A DNA stretch of 33,289 bases, taken from contig PGXU01000030.1 in assembly GCA_002839335.1 (NCBI GenBank), positions 1 through 33,289 of the forward strand, written 5' to 3'. The notes beneath the pieces were generated by a model. It worked only from the letters and a program-made list of their open reading frames with translations. It made no database searches and was not told the DNA's origin. This stretch comes from Spirochaetae bacterium HGW-Spirochaetae-4 (GTDB lineage: Bacteria > Spirochaetota > Spirochaetia > Sphaerochaetales > Sphaerochaetaceae). Shown here one piece after another: positions 11,720 to 19,533 of this stretch; position 1 is the stretch's first letter; each line of letters starts with the position of its first letter. The translations under genes were made by a program, and so were the position numbers.

Positions 11720-12328
11720 CTAGCGGGAGTGGCGCCCTTTGAGAACCTCGATGACCTCGTCCAGCCTGATGTTCTTCTGCGCAAGGAGCACCAGCATGTG
11801 GTACATGAGATCCGCGGCTTCGCCAAGGAAAAGGGGCTTGTTGTCGTCCTTCGCCTCTATGACGAGCTCGACAGCTTCCTCTCCGACCTTCTGGGCAATC
11901 TTGTTGATACCTCGGGAGAACAAATGGTTGGTATATGAACCTTCGATCGGATGCTCCCGTCGGTCGTGGATGACTTCCTCCAGGTAGAGCAGGAATTCAC
12001 TTGACGTCATGAGCTCGGGATCGTTCGCTTCATCGAAACAGGTATCGCTACCGGTATGGCAGACCGGACCGGCTGGAATCGCCTTTATAAGCAGGGTATC
12101 GTTGTCGCAATCGGCGACAATTTCACGGACCGTAAGATAATTCCCACTCGTTTCCCCTTTCGTCCACAATTTTTGTCGGGTACGCGAATAAAAAGTCACC
12201 AGGCCACGTTCTTGTGTAATGGTCAAAGCCTCCTCATTCATATACCCAAGCATGAGGACACGACGTGTCACCGCATCTTGTACGATTGCCGGTACCAGTC
12301 CATTACCTTTATTAAAATCTACCTGCAT
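11720..12328 (-). CDS. hisIE: Bifunctional phosphoribosyl-AMP cyclohydrolase / phosphoribosyl-ATP pyrophosphohydrolase
   Basis: 202 residues, catalysing steps 2 and 3 of histidine synthesis. The HisI domain (about 1-105) has LVPAIVQDAVTRRVLMLGYM, FYSRTRQKLWTKGETSGN, DCDND and PVCHTGSDTCF, with the cysteines and aspartates binding zinc and magnesium. The HisE domain (about 115-202) has the alpha-helical MazG-like pattern KIAQKVGEEAVELVIEAK and GEAADLMYHMLVLL. ATG 12328 is preferred over an upstream TTG because GGAGGGAG lies 5-6 nt before it. It follows hisF by 16 nt. The order and fusion match the enterobacterial operon. Confidence 0.95.
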   Translation of the reverse strand: MQVDFNKGNGLVPAIVQDAVTRRVLMLGYMNEEALTITQERGLVTFYSRTRQKLWTKGETSGNYLTVREIVADCDNDTLLIKAIPAGPVCHTGSDTCFDEANDPELMTSSEFLLYLEEVIHDRREHPIEGSYTNHLFSRGINKIAQKVGEEAVELVIEAKDDNKPLFLGEAADLMYHMLVLLAQKNIRLDEVIEVLKGRHSR

Positions 12329-12344
12329 CAAAACTCCCTCCAAC

Positions 12345-13127
12345 CTAACGGTTCAGGCGTATAGGTATACCATGTTTTTCCAGAAAAATCTTCAGTTCGG
12401 GAATGTCTATCTCGTGAAAATGGAAAATCGAGGCAGCCAGCGCGGCATCCGCACCGCCGGAGGTGAAGATTTCGGTAAAATGTTCCATCGCTCCGGCCCC
12501 ACCCGAGGCGATTATCGGAATACGGACACGATCGCTGAAGCGACGGGTCAGTTCGACCGCAAAACCCGCTTTCGTGCCATCATGGTCCATGGACGTAAGC
12601 AGGATCTCCCCCGCCCCACGGTCCTCGGCTTCCACCGCCCAGGAAAGGGCCTCCAGACCTGTTGGTGTCCTACCTCCGGCCACATAGACTTCCCACCCGA
12701 GCATTCCATCGGCATCGAACGTGTGATTGGATCGGACATCGATCGCACAGACCACACATTGGCTACCGAATTCCTTGGCCAGCGTATCGATGATCCTGGG
12801 ATCCTTTACGGCCATACTGTTGATGGAGATCTTGTCCGCACCCGCATCCAACAGGGCTCCGACATCGGCCACACTCCGTATTCCACCACCGACGGTGAAG
12901 GGAATATCGATGACATCGGCAATACGTCGCACCAACGATGTGAAGGTACCCCTATTCTCGACCGTCGCGGTGATATCGAGAAAGGTCAACTCGTCGGCTC
13001 CCTGGCGCGCATACAACGCGGCAAGCTCGACGGCATCACCAGCATCGCGCAAATTCACAAAGTTGACACCCTTGACCGTCCTGCCATCCCTGACATCGAG
13101 ACAGGGAATTATTCGTTTAGCCAGCAC
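12345..13127 (-). CDS. hisF: Imidazole glycerol phosphate synthase, cyclase subunit
   Basis: 260 residues from a GTG start that lies one base after the hisA stop; GGGGGG precedes it. HisF is a (beta/alpha)8 barrel that uses ammonia from HisH to close the imidazole ring, giving IGP and AICAR. Characteristic sequence: [22 protein letters not shown] with the catalytic Asp of CLDVRDG near residue 11, [17 protein letters not shown], and CAIDVRSN with the second catalytic Asp. [11 protein letters not shown] forms the C-terminal phosphate loop. The length is normal for the family. Confidence 0.96.
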
Positions 13128-13128
13128 T

Positions 13129-13872
13129 TCACACCCCCCGGGAAGCTTGCCATGCGGCAAGAGCCTTCGGTTCGATCGCCCCTTCGTATATCGCCTTCCC
13201 AATGATTGCTCCGGAAAGTCCCTTCTTCGCCAAGATATCCAGATCGGCCAAGGAGCGGATCCCTCCACTTGCGACCAGTTCCATGGAAAGTTCCCGTTTT
13301 GCCATATCGTCCATCAATGCTTCGTACAGCTCCACCGAGGGGCCGTTCATCATCCCGTCCCGGGAGATATCGGTACTGACCACCGTACGGAACCCTGCCG
13401 CCAGATAGGTGGCGACGAAGTCATATACCGCCAGATCCGTCGTAGTCTCCCAGCCGGAGACCGCGATCTTTCCCTCCCGGCAATCAGCACCCAACACCAG
13501 CCGATCCGGACCAAACGTCTGGAGCAAGGAGAGCGTCAGTTCCCTGTCGCGTGCAGCCAAGGATCCAACGGTCGCCATAGCCGCACCAGCCGAAAATACC
13601 GCATCGAAATCCTGACGGGACTGCAGTCCTCCCCCGACATCGATCACCAGGTCGGTTTCCTCGGCTATCCGTTCAAGGACCTTCAGGTTCCGGACCCGCC
13701 CGGCTTTTGCTCCGTCAAGGTCGACGAGATGCAGACGCGACAGACCGGTATCCGCAAACATCTTGGCCAATTCGGTGGGATCGGCACCATACACCTGCTT
13801 GCTGGCATAGTCGCCCATCCGCAAGCGGACACACGATCCGTCGATAATATCCATTGCGGGTATCGCTACCAT
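13129..13872 (-). CDS. hisA: ProFAR isomerase
   Basis: 247 residues starting [16 protein letters not shown], the HisA N-terminus with catalytic Asp in AMDIIDG. The second catalytic Asp is in [21 protein letters not shown] and ASGGIRS form the two phosphate-binding loops. The enzyme performs the Amadori isomerisation of ProFAR to PRFAR, the substrate of HisF/HisH. ATG 13872 is preceded by GGAGG and overlaps the end of hisH by 7 nt, so translation is likely coupled. Confidence 0.96.
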
Positions 13873-14477
13873 AACCGGTCCTCCGATATTTCCAGGAAGT
13901 TCTTCAATATCCGTTCGCCCAACGGTCCGCTTTTCTCCGGATGGAACTGCACTCCGCGATAGTTTCCTGCCCCAAGGGCCGCGCTGAAGGTGTTCTGGCC
14001 ATAGGTGCACGTGGCGATTGTCTCTTTCGATGCGGGAACATAGTATGAATGGACGAAGTAGCACCATGCCGGATCGGTTATTCCCGCAAAGAGCGGATCG
14101 TCACCGAGACCGAGGGTATTCCACCCCATATGCGGAATCTTCAGTCCCGGCTCCTCGGCGAACCGCACAACCTGACTTTCAAATATGCCCAGGCAATCGG
14201 TATCGTTCTCCTCGCTGCGGCTGCACATGAGCTGCATGCCCAGGCAGATACCAAGAAAGGGTTGTTGCAAGGACAGCAATACTTCGTCGAGATGCACCTG
14301 ACGCAAGTACCGCATGGCCGACGACGCCTCGCCCACGCCGGGAAAAATCACGCGGGAGGCATTGCGCAAGACCTTCGGATCATCGCTGACCGTGGCATCG
14401 CGACCCAACCTGTTGAGGGCACATAGCACCGAACGGATATTGCCGGCATTGTATTTCACGATAACGATGGAGGACAT
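13866..14477 (-). CDS. hisH: Imidazole glycerol phosphate synthase, glutamine amidotransferase subunit
   Basis: 203 residues, a class I glutaminase that feeds ammonia to HisF. The nucleophile Cys78 is in PFLGICLGMQL, and the His179/Glu181 pair is in GVQFHPEKSG. IVKYNAGNIRSV at the N-terminus and PGVGEASSAM (oxyanion region) are typical. The ATG shares one base with the hisB stop (TGATG) and AAGGAG precedes it. All catalytic residues are present. Confidence 0.96.
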   Translation of the reverse strand: MSSIVIVKYNAGNIRSVLCALNRLGRDATVSDDPKVLRNASRVIFPGVGEASSAMRYLRQVHLDEVLLSLQQPFLGICLGMQLMCSRSEENDTDCLGIFESQVVRFAEEPGLKIPHMGWNTLGLGDDPLFAGITDPAWCYFVHSYYVPASKETIATCTYGQNTFSAALGAGNYRGVQFHPEKSGPLGERILKNFLEISEDRLW

Positions 14478-15496
14478 CACAACACTCCTTTGGTCGATGG
14501 CAGGTCGTCGTTCCCAGGGTAGCGGAAAACCGCATGTCGCAGTGCCCGTCCGAAGGCTTTGAAGAGTGCTTCGGCCTGGTGGTGCGCATTTCCGCTGCTC
14601 ACCTGCATATGGAGATTGCACTTGGCCTCATCGCTGAACGACTTGAAGAAATGGGAGAACAATTCCGTGGGGAACGTTCCCACCATTTCACGCGTAAATT
14701 CCACATCCCATGCGAACCAGGCCCTACCCGAGAAGTCGAGGGCAACGTGTGCCAAGCATTCGTCCATAGGCAACAGTTCGAATCCGTATCTGCCGATTCC
14801 CCGCTTATCTCCCAAGGCCTGGGCAACCGCTTGTCCGAGCACAATCGCCACATCCTCCACCGTATGGTGTTCGTCGACTTCCAGGTCCCCATTGCACTGC
14901 AGTGTGAGATCAAGGCGGCCATGGCGGGCGACCTGGTGCAACATATGGTCGAAAAACGGCAACCCGGTGGCAATGGATCCTTTTCCGGTGCCGTCGAGAT
15001 CCAGTTCCAGACGTATGGATGTTTCCTTGGTCGTGCGTTCGAATCGGGCCGTGCGCGGCGGTCTCCCGATTGAACCGGAAAGCTTTGCCACCATATCGGG
15101 CCATCCGGTGAATGGCAGGGGATGCATCCCGGCTTTGGTTGCAACCGTTTGGGGGTCCACAGCGATGATCCAGGAATGTTCGGCATCCGGACTTGGACCG
15201 GGGGACCCGATCAAGGGGAGCTGGTCATCGTATACGACCTGCTCCACGGGAATACCTTCGTTGTCGAGGGTGTCGAGGATCCGTTGCAGAACTTCCTTCG
15301 CATAGAAGGCCTCTTTCTCCCGTTGCAATAGTATGGCGAGCTGAAATATGCCTTCCTCCGCAAGGTGCCTTAGGCCCCTGAATACACCCGGTGTCCAAAC
15401 AATGTCGGCAAATGTGGTCAGCGAATCCGTTACGACAACCGGTCCATCCAACGCGACTGCCAGTATCATCACCCGACTCTTCATCGATTGCTCCAT
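14477..15496 (-). CDS. hisB: HisB: imidazoleglycerol-phosphate dehydratase with degenerate N-terminal phosphatase domain
   Basis: 339 residues, the length of the bifunctional HisB. The C-terminal part (about 150-339) is a normal IGP dehydratase: FFDHMLHQVARHG (D183 onward), VDEHHTVEDVAIVLGQA (DEHH at 208-211) and SGNAHHQAEALFKAF, the two manganese-binding His motifs. The N-terminal 145 residues align in pattern with the HAD histidinol-phosphatase domain (TPGVFRGLRHLAEEGIFQLAILL) but have lost its chemistry. The DxDGT nucleophile motif is ALDGP, with Ala15 in place of the nucleophilic Asp and Pro19 for Thr. The TNQDG motif is ILLQREK, and the Cys/His zinc loop is absent. It follows hisC by 2 nt. 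Dehydratase activity is expected; phosphatase activity is not. Confidence 0.93.
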   Translation of the reverse strand: MEQSMKSRVMILAVALDGPVVVTDSLTTFADIVWTPGVFRGLRHLAEEGIFQLAILLQREKEAFYAKEVLQRILDTLDNEGIPVEQVVYDDQLPLIGSPGPSPDAEHSWIIAVDPQTVATKAGMHPLPFTGWPDMVAKLSGSIGRPPRTARFERTTKETSIRLELDLDGTGKGSIATGLPFFDHMLHQVARHGRLDLTLQCNGDLEVDEHHTVEDVAIVLGQAVAQALGDKRGIGRYGFELLPMDECLAHVALDFSGRAWFAWDVEFTREMVGTFPTELFSHFFKSFSDEAKCNLHMQVSSGNAHHQAEALFKAFGRALRHAVFRYPGNDDLPSTKGVL

Positions 15497-15498
15497 GG

Positions 15499-16581
15499 TC
15501 AGCCCTCCAATTCTTCCATCGCCGTGAGCAGCGAATCGTTTTCACTTCTGTTGCCTATGGTGATCCGTACACACCCGAAACAACCGCGTACAGTAGAACG
15601 GTTTCTGATTATGATTCCCCGCTCCCGCAAGGAGGAGCACAGTCCATCCGGATCGAGTACCCGGACCAACAGGAAATTCGCATCGCTGGGGAAGACCATT
15701 TGCACAAAGGAAAACTTCTGCAGCTGCCGGGCGACACGCTCCCGTTCCTGTATGGTCCCATCGATATTCCGGTACACTTCCTGTGCGTGCTCCAAAGCCG
15801 CGATCGCGAGCTCTTGTGCGATGCCGCTGAGATTGTAGGGATATTTGACCTTGTGCATGGCCTCGACAATCTCCGGCGGAGCAACCGCGATTCCCACCCG
15901 TGCATTCGCCAATCCCCAGCTTTTGGAGAGGGTCCGGAGAACCACCAGGCGGGGACAATCCCGCATGAGGGTAATCGCCGATTCCTTGCCTGAGAATTCG
16001 ATATAGGCTTCATCGACTACGGTGATTCCCTTGAAGCGTAGGGCAATCTTCGCAATCTGTTCCAAAGGAAAACTGTTGCCGGACGGATTGTTGGGAGAGC
16101 AGATGAAGAGCATCTTATGCATGCCGGTTTCCGGAGTCCCGTTGTTCACCAGGTGGCAAACGGTATCCAAATGCCGCAGGTTGAGGGAAAAATCGGTCTG
16201 CAGAGGACAATGGGAGACCCCTATGTCGTTGATATCGGCGAACACCTCATAAGCCCCATACGTAGGCGACATCAACAGTACCTTGTCCTTGTGGGGGACA
16301 CAGAAGATCCTAAACAGTACATCGATCATTTCATCGCTACCGTTTCCTATCACCAGGCTCTTCTCCGGCAATCCCATGACAGTGGAAATCGCACGTTTCA
16401 AATCCCTATGTTGAGGATCGGGATACCGGTTTCTCCCCACATCCCCGACAAAGTCACGCCAATTCTCGTTGGCATCCAAGAACACTTTTGCTGTCCCGGT
16501 ATATTCATTGCGGGCAGATGAATAGGGAACCAACGATACAATGTTCGGCCGCATGAGTTCCTTGATAGTGAATCCGCTCAT
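15499..16581 (-). CDS. hisC: Histidinol-phosphate aminotransferase
   Basis: 360 residues, a fold type I PLP enzyme converting imidazole-acetol phosphate plus glutamate to histidinol phosphate. Features: LDANEN near 36-41, IGNGSDEMIDVL at 78-89, CSPNNPSGN (161-169), VVDEAYIEF with Asp190, and the Schiff-base lysine K220 in LRTLSKSWGLANARVG. FLLVRV and a late arginine motif (VRITIG) bind the carboxylate end. The ATG overlaps the hisD stop by 4 nt (ATGA), with GAGGAG just before it. Confidence 0.96.
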   Translation of the reverse strand: MSGFTIKELMRPNIVSLVPYSSARNEYTGTAKVFLDANENWRDFVGDVGRNRYPDPQHRDLKRAISTVMGLPEKSLVIGNGSDEMIDVLFRIFCVPHKDKVLLMSPTYGAYEVFADINDIGVSHCPLQTDFSLNLRHLDTVCHLVNNGTPETGMHKMLFICSPNNPSGNSFPLEQIAKIALRFKGITVVDEAYIEFSGKESAITLMRDCPRLVVLRTLSKSWGLANARVGIAVAPPEIVEAMHKVKYPYNLSGIAQELAIAALEHAQEVYRNIDGTIQERERVARQLQKFSFVQMVFPSDANFLLVRVLDPDGLCSSLRERGIIIRNRSTVRGCFGCVRITIGNRSENDSLLTAMEELEG

Positions 16582-17900
16582 TTTTGCTCCTCTTCGATGC
16601 TTGACAATCGTACACGTACAGCTTGGGCATGGGCATCCAACGATTCGGCGGTTGCCATGGTCTCGATCACCGGGCCCAGGGATTGCAACCCGTGCCTGGT
16701 AATTCGCTGGAATGTTATCTTCTTATAGAAACTGTCCAAGGAAACCCCACTGTATGAACGGGCCCACCCTGCGGTAGGCAACGTATGGTTTGTTCCCGAG
16801 GCATAATCCCCTGCCGACTCGCATGTCCATTCGCCGAGAAAAACGGACCCGGCGTTTCTCACCTGGTTCTCGACCAGCGCAAAGTCGACAGTATTGACGA
16901 TGAGGTGTTCCGGACCATAGGTATTGATCACACGTGGCAACAACCCGATATCAGTGACAAGTACAGCCTTGGCGTGCTGCAGTGACTGGAGCGCCAATTC
17001 CTTGCGTGGCAGATATGCCAATTGTGCTTCGAGTTCCCTCTCTACGGCATCGGCCAGATGGTGGCCGGCCTGGACGTCGTCGGCGCTGACGACGAGAATC
17101 ACTTGGCTATCGGGACCATGTTCAGCCTGGCTGAGCAGATCCGCCGCCGCGAACCGAGCATTGCTGGAAGCATCGATCACCACCATGACTTCGGACGGAC
17201 CCGCCGGAAGGTCTATGGCACATCGGCGAGCGGCAACCTGTTGTTTGGCTTCGGTGACGAAACGGTTTCCGGGACCGAATATCTTATCCACTGCGGGAAC
17301 GGTTTGGGTACCGTAGGCAAGTGCGGCGATAGCCTGTGCTCCCCCCGCGGCTACGATTTTCGTTACACCACTTATGGATGCGGCATACAATATCGCGGGG
17401 TGGATCGTTCCGTCGGGCCTGGGAGGTGTGGCCAGAACCACGTGCTTGCACCCGGCCAACTGTGCCGGAATACCCAACATAAGGACCGTCGAGAACAACG
17501 GAGCACTTCCGCCCGGCACATAGATGCCGACAGTTTCCAATGGGATGCTTTTGCGCCAGCAATAGACTCCCGGTTCGGTCTCCACCTGCTCATCCCTCGG
17601 CTTTTGCGTTGTATGGAACCGTTCGATATTTCTCTTCGCATGATCGATGGCTGTGCGCAGCTTTACATCCAGGCTCGCTTTGGCAGCCTCCATGACCGAT
17701 CGGGAAATCGACAGCGATTCCAATCGGGCGTGGTCGAACCGCTCGGCGTAGGCCAGCAGGGCAGAGTCGCCATGAAGGCGTACGTCTTCGATGATCTCGG
17801 CAACGACCGAGGCGACAGATTCCGCCTCCAACGCCGGTCGGGCCAGCAGCCTTGCGATTTCCTCGGGTTTTGGATCGATAATCCGCTCCATCAGTCCCAT
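16578..17900 (-). CDS. hisD: Histidinol dehydrogenase
   Basis: 440 residues; a zinc enzyme that oxidises histidinol to histidine in two NAD-dependent steps. Diagnostic segments are YVPGGSAPLFSTVLMLGIPA, IFGPGNRFVTEAKQ, GPSEVMVVID, LSQAEHGPDSQ and the zinc-binding region GTNHTLPTAGWARSYSG. The ATG at 17900 has GGAGG seven bases upstream and lies 15 nt after hisG. The length is slightly above the usual 430 because of an N-terminal segment before the conserved domain. Confidence 0.96.
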   Translation of the reverse strand: MGLMERIIDPKPEEIARLLARPALEAESVASVVAEIIEDVRLHGDSALLAYAERFDHARLESLSISRSVMEAAKASLDVKLRTAIDHAKRNIERFHTTQKPRDEQVETEPGVYCWRKSIPLETVGIYVPGGSAPLFSTVLMLGIPAQLAGCKHVVLATPPRPDGTIHPAILYAASISGVTKIVAAGGAQAIAALAYGTQTVPAVDKIFGPGNRFVTEAKQQVAARRCAIDLPAGPSEVMVVIDASSNARFAAADLLSQAEHGPDSQVILVVSADDVQAGHHLADAVERELEAQLAYLPRKELALQSLQHAKAVLVTDIGLLPRVINTYGPEHLIVNTVDFALVENQVRNAGSVFLGEWTCESAGDYASGTNHTLPTAGWARSYSGVSLDSFYKKITFQRITRHGLQSLGPVIETMATAESLDAHAQAVRVRLSSIEEEQK

Positions 17901-17915
17901 CGGGCTATCCTCCCT

Positions 17916-18776
17916 TCAGTCGGCCATCTTTTCGATAGCCGTAACCAGAATTCCTTGTGCCCCCAGATTCTTCAACTGCTCCAGGACATCCCAGAACCGT
18001 TCTTCCCTGACAACCGTCTGGACGGCACACCACCCGCTGTCCAGCAACGGCGTGACCGTAGGACTTTTCATACCGCCAATAATCGCCGCCGCCTGGTCCA
18101 AATGTTCCTTGGGGAGGTTGAACATGATGTACTTGTAATCGTCGGCACGCATAACGGCATCGATCCGCAGCAACAGGCGGTCCAGGATGACACGCTTGGC
18201 CTCGGCCAATCCGGGATGCACGAGCATGACTGCCGTAGAACGGTAAATCACTTCAACTTCCTGCAACCCGTTGCTCACCAGGGTGGCTCCGGTGCTCACC
18301 AAATCGCAAATGGCGTCGGCAACTCCAATCGAGGGGGTTATCTCTACCGAACCTGAGATCTCGTAGATCCTGGCATCCACACCCGCTTCCTCAAGCTTGC
18401 GTCCCAGGATACCGGGATAACTGGTTGCGATGCGCTTGCCATCGAGCGATTTCAGACCATCGTAGGCAAACCCCTGTGGAACCGCAATGGAGAGACGGCA
18501 CTTGGAAAAGCCGAGGTCACGCAATACATCCAACGGCAAGTTCTGCTCATCATGTTCATTGCGACCGACAATGCCGATATCGGCGACACCATCGTGCACA
18601 TACCGTGGAATATCGTCGTCCCGCAGGTAGAGGAATTCGATGGGGAAATTTTCAGCCTCTTCCTTGAGCAACCTTGAATCCGAACCGAACCTGATACCAC
18701 AGTCCCGGATGATCTGCAACGATTTCTCACTCAACCGTCCACTTTTCTGTACCGCGATCCTCAATCGTGTCTCCAT
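17916..18776 (-). CDS. hisG: ATP phosphoribosyltransferase (long form)
   Basis: 286 residues; commits PRPP and ATP to histidine and is normally inhibited by histidine. It begins METRLRIAVQKSGRLSEKS, the proteobacterial-type long form. DDIPRYVHDGVADIGIVGRN, ADAICDLVSTGATLVSNGL (PRPP loop) and a C-terminal ACT-like regulatory domain (about 210-286, with MFNLPKEHLDQAAAIIGGMKSPTVTPL) are visible. The long form with its own regulatory domain does not need HisZ. ATG 18776 has GAGGAGGG six bases before it. Transcription reaches it only by reading through the attenuator terminator at 18795-18821. Confidence 0.96.
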   Translation of the reverse strand: METRLRIAVQKSGRLSEKSLQIIRDCGIRFGSDSRLLKEEAENFPIEFLYLRDDDIPRYVHDGVADIGIVGRNEHDEQNLPLDVLRDLGFSKCRLSIAVPQGFAYDGLKSLDGKRIATSYPGILGRKLEEAGVDARIYEISGSVEITPSIGVADAICDLVSTGATLVSNGLQEVEVIYRSTAVMLVHPGLAEAKRVILDRLLLRIDAVMRADDYKYIMFNLPKEHLDQAAAIIGGMKSPTVTPLLDSGWCAVQTVVREERFWDVLEQLKNLGAQGILVTAIEKMAD

Positions 18777-18794
18777 GCAAGCCCTCCTCAGGAT

Positions 18795-18821
18795 AAAAAA
18801 AAACTCCGCGAAATGCGGAGT
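18795..18821 (-). terminator. his attenuator terminator
   Basis: In the transcript ACTCCGC and GCGGAGT pair perfectly (7 bp) around an ATTTC loop and run straight into nine Ts (complement of 18795-18803). It sits about 33 nt after the leader-peptide stop and 19 nt before the hisG ATG, the expected place for a transcription attenuator. Confidence 0.93.
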
Positions 18822-18885
18822 CGTCAAGTACTCTGTCAACGCACACGCATTCCATCAAGATTCCGAGATGTGGTGATGGTGATGC
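18810..18885 (-). promoter_or_regulatory. his attenuator switch: mutually exclusive RNA pairings
   Basis: Three alternative pairings can be read. Segment 1, GCATCACCATC (18885 down to 18875, across the His codons), pairs with segment 2, GATGGAATGC (18856 down to 18847), in nine pairs with a small internal loop. Segment 2, as GGAATGCG (18853 down to 18846), can instead pair with segment 3, CGCATTTC (18817 down to 18810), in eight pairs including one G-U; this antiterminator uses up the 5' arm and loop of the terminator. A ribosome stalled on His codons would cover segment 1 and release segment 2. This is the classical his logic; the pairings were found by eye. Confidence 0.8.
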
Positions 18886-18905
18886 AGTGCCAATGTCTTT
18901 TTCAT
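18855..18905 (-). CDS. hisL: his operon leader peptide with five His codons
   Basis: The peptide is MKKTLALHHHHHISES, 16 residues with CAT CAC CAT CAC CAC in a row. It functions as a sensor: slow decoding of the His run when charged His-tRNA is scarce stalls the ribosome and favours the antiterminator. E. coli hisL has seven consecutive His codons in a peptide of the same length. The stop codon overlaps the start of RNA segment 2, as attenuation requires. No Shine-Dalgarno precedes the ATG and the likely transcription start falls on its A, so initiation may be leaderless. Confidence 0.92.
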   Translation of the reverse strand: MKKTLALHHHHHISES

Positions 18906-18911
18906 GAATTC

Positions 18912-18940
18912 ACACTACCGAAGGCAATCTTTTGTGTCAA
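18912..18940 (-). promoter_or_regulatory. his operon promoter
   Basis: A perfect TTGACA -35 (18940 down to 18935) is followed after 17 nt by TAGTGT (18917 down to 18912), a poor -10. The -10 ends 6 nt before the hisL ATG. It starts 5 nt after the stop of the DUF308 gene. The -35 and the context make it convincing; the exact -10 is less sure. Confidence 0.6.
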
Positions 18941-18945
18941 GAGCA

Positions 18946-19533
18946 TCATGGAGTTTCATCGATCTCGACATCGGCCGCCTCGACCGTCACACCCACACGT
19001 TTCTTGCGCGCCATGAAAGCCACCAGGGCAAGGGTGAGTCCCACCACAATCACCGTAATGCCAAGGATTATGACCAGCAAATCCGCCACACTCCGGGGAA
19101 ACAGGAACAACAGTACGGCGAACACGAGCGAAACCAGTCCCTCGGTAACCAATGGAGCCGCGGGGAAACCGGCGGCCTGGACGGCAAATGCATCGATGAT
19201 CATGACAATGGCGGATATCACCATCTGGGCAGCCAGGACATAGATGATGATCGTCCACATGGCCTCACCGGTCGCCAAGGGCATGATGACAGCCAGAACA
19301 CCGATAATGATTCCCAACACGCCCTTTACCAGTGTCGTCGCATGGTTGAACCGTCCGAACGAATATTTGTTCATGGTCGCCAGCGAACCGATTCCCGTTA
19401 TGATGGCGACGATTCCCAAGACTATGATAAAGACCTGTATGAAAAGGTCCTGCCGGGCAAGTATGAAGATGCCCACTATGACCACAAGAATTGCGATCAG
19501 CAATTGTACGATCCATCGACCTTTCAGTTTCAT
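18946..19533 (-). CDS. DUF308 / HdeD-like membrane protein
   Basis: 195 residues with six hydrophobic segments arranged in two-helix repeats, as in the HdeD (DUF308) family. Visible segments include WIVQLLIAILVVIVGIFIL, FIQVFIIVLGIVAIITGIG, VKGVLGIIIGVLAVIMPLA, the helix with VISAIVMIIDAFAV, LVSLVFAVLLFLF and LLVIILGITVIVVGLTLAL. A basic stretch MARKKR and an acidic C-terminal tail face the cytoplasm. HdeD of E. coli is linked to acid resistance; the function here is unknown. ATG 19533 is chosen for the GGGAGGA before it. The gene ends 5 nt from the his promoter and is divergent from the HAD gene. Confidence 0.82.
   Translation of the reverse strand: MKLKGRWIVQLLIAILVVIVGIFILARQDLFIQVFIIVLGIVAIITGIGSLATMNKYSFGRFNHATTLVKGVLGIIIGVLAVIMPLATGEAMWTIIIYVLAAQMVISAIVMIIDAFAVQAAGFPAAPLVTEGLVSLVFAVLLFLFPRSVADLLVIILGITVIVVGLTLALVAFMARKKRVGVTVEAADVEIDETP

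Follow-up and report, generated by a model that had tools for sequence, protein, structure and literature searches.

The 33,289-nucleotide stretch of DNA analyzed here (the window), from Spirochaetae bacterium HGW-Spirochaetae-4, carries on its minus strand a histidine biosynthesis operon with a leader region in front of it. The features of the leader and the operon, in the direction of transcription, were as follows.

18935..18940, minus strand: -35 box TTGACA, read from the sequence; its position at -36 to -31 from the leader ATG is kept family-wide
18912..18917, minus strand: -10 box TAGTGT, after a spacer of 17 nt, ending 6 nt upstream of the leader ATG; predicted +1 at A18905
18855..18905, minus strand: hisL leader peptide ORF, MKKTLALHHHHHISES followed by a stop codon, with five consecutive His codons and without a Shine-Dalgarno (SD) site
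18872..18890, minus strand: region 1, the 5' arm of the 1:2 hairpin, overlapping the His codons, from folds and pair counts
18841..18857, minus strand: region 2, TGATGGAATGCGTGTGC, partner of region 1 or region 3
18810..18817, minus strand: antiterminator part of region 3, CGCATTTC, pairing with GGAATGCG at 18853-18846, from folds
18802..18822, minus strand: terminator hairpin 3:4, GACTCCGC-ATTTC-GCGGAGTT
18795..18803, minus strand: terminator T run of nine T, read from the sequence
18782..18788, minus strand: hisG Shine-Dalgarno AGGAGGG, a strong SD
17916..18776, minus strand: hisG, long form, 286 aa, ATG at 18776
16578..17900, minus strand: hisD
15499..16581, minus strand: hisC
14477..15496, minus strand: hisB, IGPD domain intact, N-terminal HisN-like phosphatase domain degenerate
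13866..14477, minus strand: hisH
13129..13866, minus strand: hisA
12345..13115, minus strand: hisF
11720..12343, minus strand: hisIE (fused)

The leader ORF comprises 16 codons (ATG AAA AAG ACA TTG GCA CTG CAT CAC CAT CAC CAC ATC TCG GAA TCT TGA), and its run of five consecutive CAY codons occurs once in the window, against 0.02 occurrences per shuffle. The terminator core, ACTCCGC-ATTTC-GCGGAGT, spans 18821-18803, and the stem reaches 8 bp when G18822:T18802 is counted. The upstream neighbor of the leader is a DUF308 gene that ends at 18946, 41 bases before it. The ORF with its five His codons, the GC-rich hairpin followed by nine Ts, and hisG behind them constitute a complete his attenuator. 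The first-pass annotation had proposed such an element, and its leader ORF, terminator, nine Ts, and hisG were all located on the minus strand where it had put them, followed by the gene order that it had read, hisGDC(NB)HAF(IE).

Within this operon, the histidinol-phosphatase half of HisB (15496-15070) was found to have lost its catalytic DxDGT motif, the corresponding stretch reading ILAVALDGPV in the window genome. A genus mate, G124, has lost the motif too (GLFVEPEGPL); G080 shows an altered version (FVDREGTI), and six other genera keep DRDG. With the phosphatase motif lost and the dehydratase half intact, the phosphatase activity is probably supplied by another enzyme.

The attenuator is routine in the Sphaerochaetaceae, the one family whose genomes were sampled for the order, an order-level search having added nothing. 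Long HisG was present in 99 of 139 genomes, and a His leader was identified in 86 distinct upstream regions, with 4 other regions giving none. In these 86 distinct leaders, the ORF with the His run usually lay 105 to 155 nt 5' of hisG; the leader-to-hisG distance, ∼110 to 150 nt, is short beside the ∼180 to 210 nt of gammaproteobacteria. The peptide residues around the His run differed from leader to leader, as in MKKTLALHHHHHISES, MNSRFAKHHHHLSVYL, MKTNQNRVHHHHHLCNRP, MNLHHHMCVLPA, and, in the cultured Sphaerochaeta halotolerans, MKTNQSCVHHHHLLCNRP (L092); since the other residues vary freely, the His run is the part under selection. Automatic detection gave a terminator hairpin followed by a T run in 82/86 leaders and in 11/86 shuffled sequences, counts in which the leaders of one genus are not independent, and the terminator of leader L003, missed by the automatic search as an artefact, was seen on reading the region. 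Across relatives, the stem pairs were exchanged in compensatory fashion. Absence of the leader and stems from close relatives, which the first-pass annotation had named as evidence against its proposal, was the opposite of what these 86 leaders and 82 terminators showed. A minority of the family (G024, G031, G033, G058, G059, and G066; genera g21 and g22) was without long HisG; the HisG match in these genomes was distant, at ∼31 to 34% identity over ∼200 residues, and probably represents the short HisG form.

In the fold of the window leader, the 1:2 pairing joins 18890-18872 with 18857-18841, and the 2:3 pairing joins GGAATGCG (18853-18846) with CGCATTTC (18817-18810), the latter being half of the terminator 5' arm plus the terminator loop. 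The alternative partner of region 2, TGATGGAATGCGTGTGC, is GCACTGCAT..CCATCACC over the His codons. On its own, the window leader folded only mildly better than its shuffles (z of -1.5), which is not decisive, and the proof was therefore taken from relatives. Helix 1:2 was stronger than with a dinucleotide-shuffled region 2 in 74/82 leaders, and helix 2:3 likewise in 74/82, part of this excess being expected given that the composition of region 1 is fixed by the His codons. The two helices occupy the same region 2 bases, with a mean overlap of 0.95 over the family. In an alignment of ten sequences from the genera nearest the window, each of the three helices kept far more of its pairs than slid controls did (69, 76, and 91% of cells); covariation was clear for the terminator only, with that of 1:2 weak and the core of 2:3 invariant. 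The three mutually exclusive pairings read from the single sequence all exist; of the covariation proposed as a check on each of them, only that of the terminator was clear. The stall logic of the E. coli type fits as well and is kept across the family, with both competing helices in excess in 74/82 leaders.

The effect of ribosome position was simulated. The mean terminator probability over the family was 0.72 when the ribosome sat at the second His codon versus 0.91 when it sat at the stop. This signal is modest, as the simulation scored the terminator 5' arm only and the terminator loop is also part of the antiterminator; the duplex-versus-shuffle tests given above were then used instead. 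In equilibrium folds of the full RNA, the terminator was still favored in the stalled state in many members (0.88 versus 0.95 for the window leader). Therefore, the switch must act during transcription.

The family was also aligned on the leader ATG. This revealed TTGAC at -36 to -32, TAnnGT at -12 to -7, and a pyrimidine at -1, and no SD-like motif upstream of the leader ATG was found in the alignment. Leaderless genes are widespread in bacteria, and their hallmark is a -10 box ∼12 bp before the start codon (PMC3160421). When the best promoter in the 90 bases upstream of each leader was chosen by textbook sigma-70 scoring, the predicted +1 fell exactly on the leader ATG in 61/85 cases and within 1 nt of it in 68/85; with other in-frame ATGs allowed, it fell within 1 nt in 76/85 (68 exact), covering about a dozen genera. 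The same scan gave 3/85 for shuffled sequences and 0/57 for gammaproteobacteria. It gave 1/30 for Bacteroidota and 0/16 for Calditrichota-like leaders; the scan uses the sigma-70 consensus and Bacteroidota use another promoter type, so that their 5' ends are not properly judged by it. The mean anti-SD energy was -2.8 kcal/mol at the leader and -9.8 at hisG, with -2.5 for shuffled upstream sequence. From these sequence features, the leader peptide appears to be leaderless, its mRNA starting with AUG. This apparent lack of both a 5' UTR and an SD at the leader ORF was missed by the first-pass annotation, as was the routine presence of the attenuator in the family.

Nine leaders were exceptions to this spacing, and eight of them fell in genus g2. 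There, a promoter located ∼15 to 30 nt upstream came with an SD such as AGGAG. An SD of -6 kcal/mol or better was found in 7/10 g2 leaders, and one more carries an SD ahead of an in-frame ATG farther upstream; no SD accompanies the leaderless promoter in the two g2 leaders that retain it. The g2 leaders concerned are L050, L054, L059, L061, L063, L186, L188, and L191. Judged by its predicted signals, genus g2 has exchanged the leaderless start of its his leader for an SD-led one served by an upstream promoter.

The same promoter-to-ATG spacing was enriched throughout the window genome, with 49 sites against 11 in the reversed control, and in one other spirochaete (G276; 182 against 14). When the gap was lengthened by 7 nt in the window genome, the enrichment was gone (14 versus 15), and it was absent from the three gammaproteobacterial, one Bacteroidota, and one Calditrichota genomes scanned. 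Of 30 such sites inspected in the window genome, ∼23 had an ATG opening a long ORF, and the genes following such sites, named by eye, included those for leucyl-tRNA synthetase (leuS), ribonuclease HII, the CCA-adding enzyme, and peptide deformylase (def). An example within the window is the site at 28031-27993, before the peptide deformylase gene. This spacing suggests that leaderless mRNAs may be common in spirochaetes, including those of essential genes such as leuS, the CCA-adding enzyme gene, and def.

Taken with the helices and the terminator, the promoter position makes it very probable that the his operon is controlled by a ribosome-mediated transcription attenuator with a leaderless leader peptide. 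RNA polymerase would start at or beside A18905, producing an mRNA that begins with AUG, and, as the promoter position implies, a ribosome would load on the free 5' end without an SD site. When charged His-tRNA is scarce, the ribosome would stall on the CAU/CAC run and cover region 1, leaving 2:3 to pair; no terminator would then form, and hisGDC(NB)HAF(IE) would be transcribed. When His-tRNA is plentiful, the ribosome would reach the UGA at 18857-18855 and cover the antiterminator part of region 2, so that the 3:4 terminator forms. With no ribosome on the leader, 1:2 and 3:4 would both form, and transcription would also stop.

The main competitor to this reading is an attenuator that is real but not leaderless, with upstream or multiple starts and a short 5' UTR that lacks a strong SD. 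Consensus matching is the sole source of the predicted start sites, SD scores are likewise weak for E. coli hisL and other gammaproteobacterial leaders, and in L046 the predicted +1 lies 4 nt 5' of the ATG. Against this, about a dozen genera keep the -35 box, the -10 box, and the -1 pyrimidine at a fixed distance from the ATG, the genome-wide excess of this spacing disappears on the 7-nt shift, and in g2 an SD has arisen precisely in leaders whose promoter has moved upstream; the nonleaderless version is thus rated unlikely. Far more improbable still, to the point of being hardly credible, is that the terminator and the short ORF coincide by chance or serve another role, be it as the DUF308 terminator, as a small RNA, or through a His-rich peptide that acts in trans. 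The DUF308 gene does end only 41 bases off at 18946, intergenic terminators are common, and leader transcripts and peptides can act in trans, as for S. meliloti trpL (PMC7298713), but the His run, the terminator position, and region 2 are kept specifically before hisG while the other residues vary. The leaderless attenuator is accordingly retained as the preferred reading.

The origin of the operon was examined through HisG. The nearest named matches were from Spirochaetae bacterium HGW-Spirochaetae-2 (98%), other Spirochaetales MAGs, and Sphaerochaeta (71%), placing the host, a probable spirochaete in the first-pass annotation, in the Sphaerochaetaceae. HisG was 71 to 98% identical among the nearer genera of the family and ≤37% identical to that of other Spirochaetota (393 spirochaetes sampled), whereas identity reached 58% in Bacteroidota, 56% in Calditrichota, and 50% in gammaproteobacteria, with 49% to E. 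coli. In a maximum-likelihood (ML) tree of this one gene, unevenly sampled, Sphaerochaetaceae (98/92), gammaproteobacteria (100/99), and Bacteroidota plus Calditrichota (99/94) each formed a clade; Sphaerochaetaceae adjoined Bacteroidota/Calditrichota, with gammaproteobacteria outside and other spirochaetes far away. His leaders were found before hisG in almost every gammaproteobacterium examined and in most of the Bacteroidota and of the Calditrichota. Since the latter two phyla also have them, an exchange of the operon between phyla, perhaps together with its leader, is probable and is the simplest reading. For Bacteroidetes, his operon and hisNB transfer has been a subject of discussion (PMC8305728). 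The His-rich leader ORFs of Bacteroidota and Calditrichota, often followed by a terminator, include L085, L195, L206, L210, L222, L225, L227, L229, and L239.

Two other histories were weighed. The transferred operon proposed in the first-pass annotation is supported as to transfer, given the ≤37% identity to other Spirochaetota, but its expected nesting among gammaproteobacteria does not. A donor from within that group shares the operon order, the fused hisNB and hisIE, and a similar leader logic, along with the 49% HisG identity to E. coli; as nothing nests in gammaproteobacteria in the HisG ML tree, this source is very unlikely. Somewhat less improbable, although still doubtful, is that there was no transfer and that this HisG type is ancestral to Spirochaetota and was lost or replaced in all other families. 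The phylogeny alone gives no direction, and sampling beyond the family reached only as far as the search patterns allowed, but no other spirochaete of the 393 exceeded 37%, against 58% in Bacteroidota, 56% in Calditrichota, and 50% in gammaproteobacteria, and the full operon order and the HisNB and HisIE fusions match those of these three groups. Movement of the operon type between phyla, possibly with its leader, therefore remains the probable history.

A second case of his leaders was observed in some genera of two other Spirochaetia families, where His leaders with terminators, such as MTEIRLHLHHHLFSA, MKFSVHHLHHHFLNFSA, and MNRIFAALGHHHHHGYSLPPESGGFAR, precede a HisG only ∼30% identical to that of the window. 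The leaders concerned are L168, L283, L285, L286, L287, L295, L296, L314 to L316, L318, and L330. Their predicted promoters lay at or near the ATG, in a check less thorough than that of the Sphaerochaetaceae, and most members of the largest genus there (g27) are without a His leader. We give roughly even chances to the view that Spirochaetia his operons of two origins are both under leaderless His-peptide attenuators, the leaderless mode being a property of the host lineage to which attenuators were fitted or refitted, with one genus having since reverted to an SD-driven leader.

Known RNA families did not account for the leader. In Rfam, no family reached its gathering score in the window; the best relevant one was His_leader (RF00514) with 15.4 bits and an E value of 4.2 against a gathering score of 49, and His_leader had no match in the whole window genome. 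A T-box was rejected, none being found down to E 10 around the leader, and the Hrs1 and anti-hemB matches were terminator look-alikes. The element resembles the his attenuator (hisL) of E. coli and Salmonella in its His-codon run, its 1:2/2:3/3:4 alternatives, the terminator before hisG, and the gene order, but differs in the predicted start at the leader AUG, the lack of an SD, a HisG of another branch, and a score below the RF00514 gathering score (15.4 bits versus 49). The spirochaete attenuator therefore departs from the E. coli model, although the mechanism itself is known. Leaderless attenuator peptides have been documented for Sinorhizobium meliloti trpL (PMC7298713) and Streptomyces lividans leuL (PMC8079986), which likewise control an amino acid operon from a leader ORF at the transcript 5' end but differ in amino acid, genes, and phyla.

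Attenuators of his genes that work through a leader peptide have been described for gammaproteobacteria and for scattered groups of Firmicutes (PMC9413887; PMC4833913). Those of the Bacillus cereus group, Peptostreptococcaceae, and Erysipelotrichales (PMC9413887) similarly combine a His leader with a terminator/antiterminator outside Proteobacteria; they belong to Firmicutes, and a leaderless start is not among the features stated in the accessible part of that report. The candidate Bacteroidota/Calditrichota leaders (L085, L195, L206, L222, and L229) share the HisG clade and a His-rich ORF, with a terminator in several, but are without a promoter fixed at the ATG by the sigma-70 consensus (1/30 and 0/16). 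The literature searched, mostly outside subscription journals, held no description of a spirochaete his attenuator or of Sphaerochaeta leaderless mRNAs. Within that literature, this agrees with the undescribed branch envisaged in the first-pass annotation; a host phylum in which such control is already routine, the other circumstance that it had named as evidence against its proposal, applies to the family itself but not to the searchable literature.

These findings extend leader-peptide control of histidine synthesis to spirochaetes, with Bacteroidota and Calditrichota as candidates, among leaders that the Rfam His_leader model misses. A leaderless peptide would alter the coupling of translation to transcription, in that ribosome loading has to await the appearance of the 5' end; in a leader lacking both an SD and a 5' UTR, the timing between ribosome loading and polymerase would be set differently from that in E. 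coli. The apparent switch of genus g2 to an SD-driven leader may accordingly offer a natural experiment on the joint evolution of initiation mode and attenuation.
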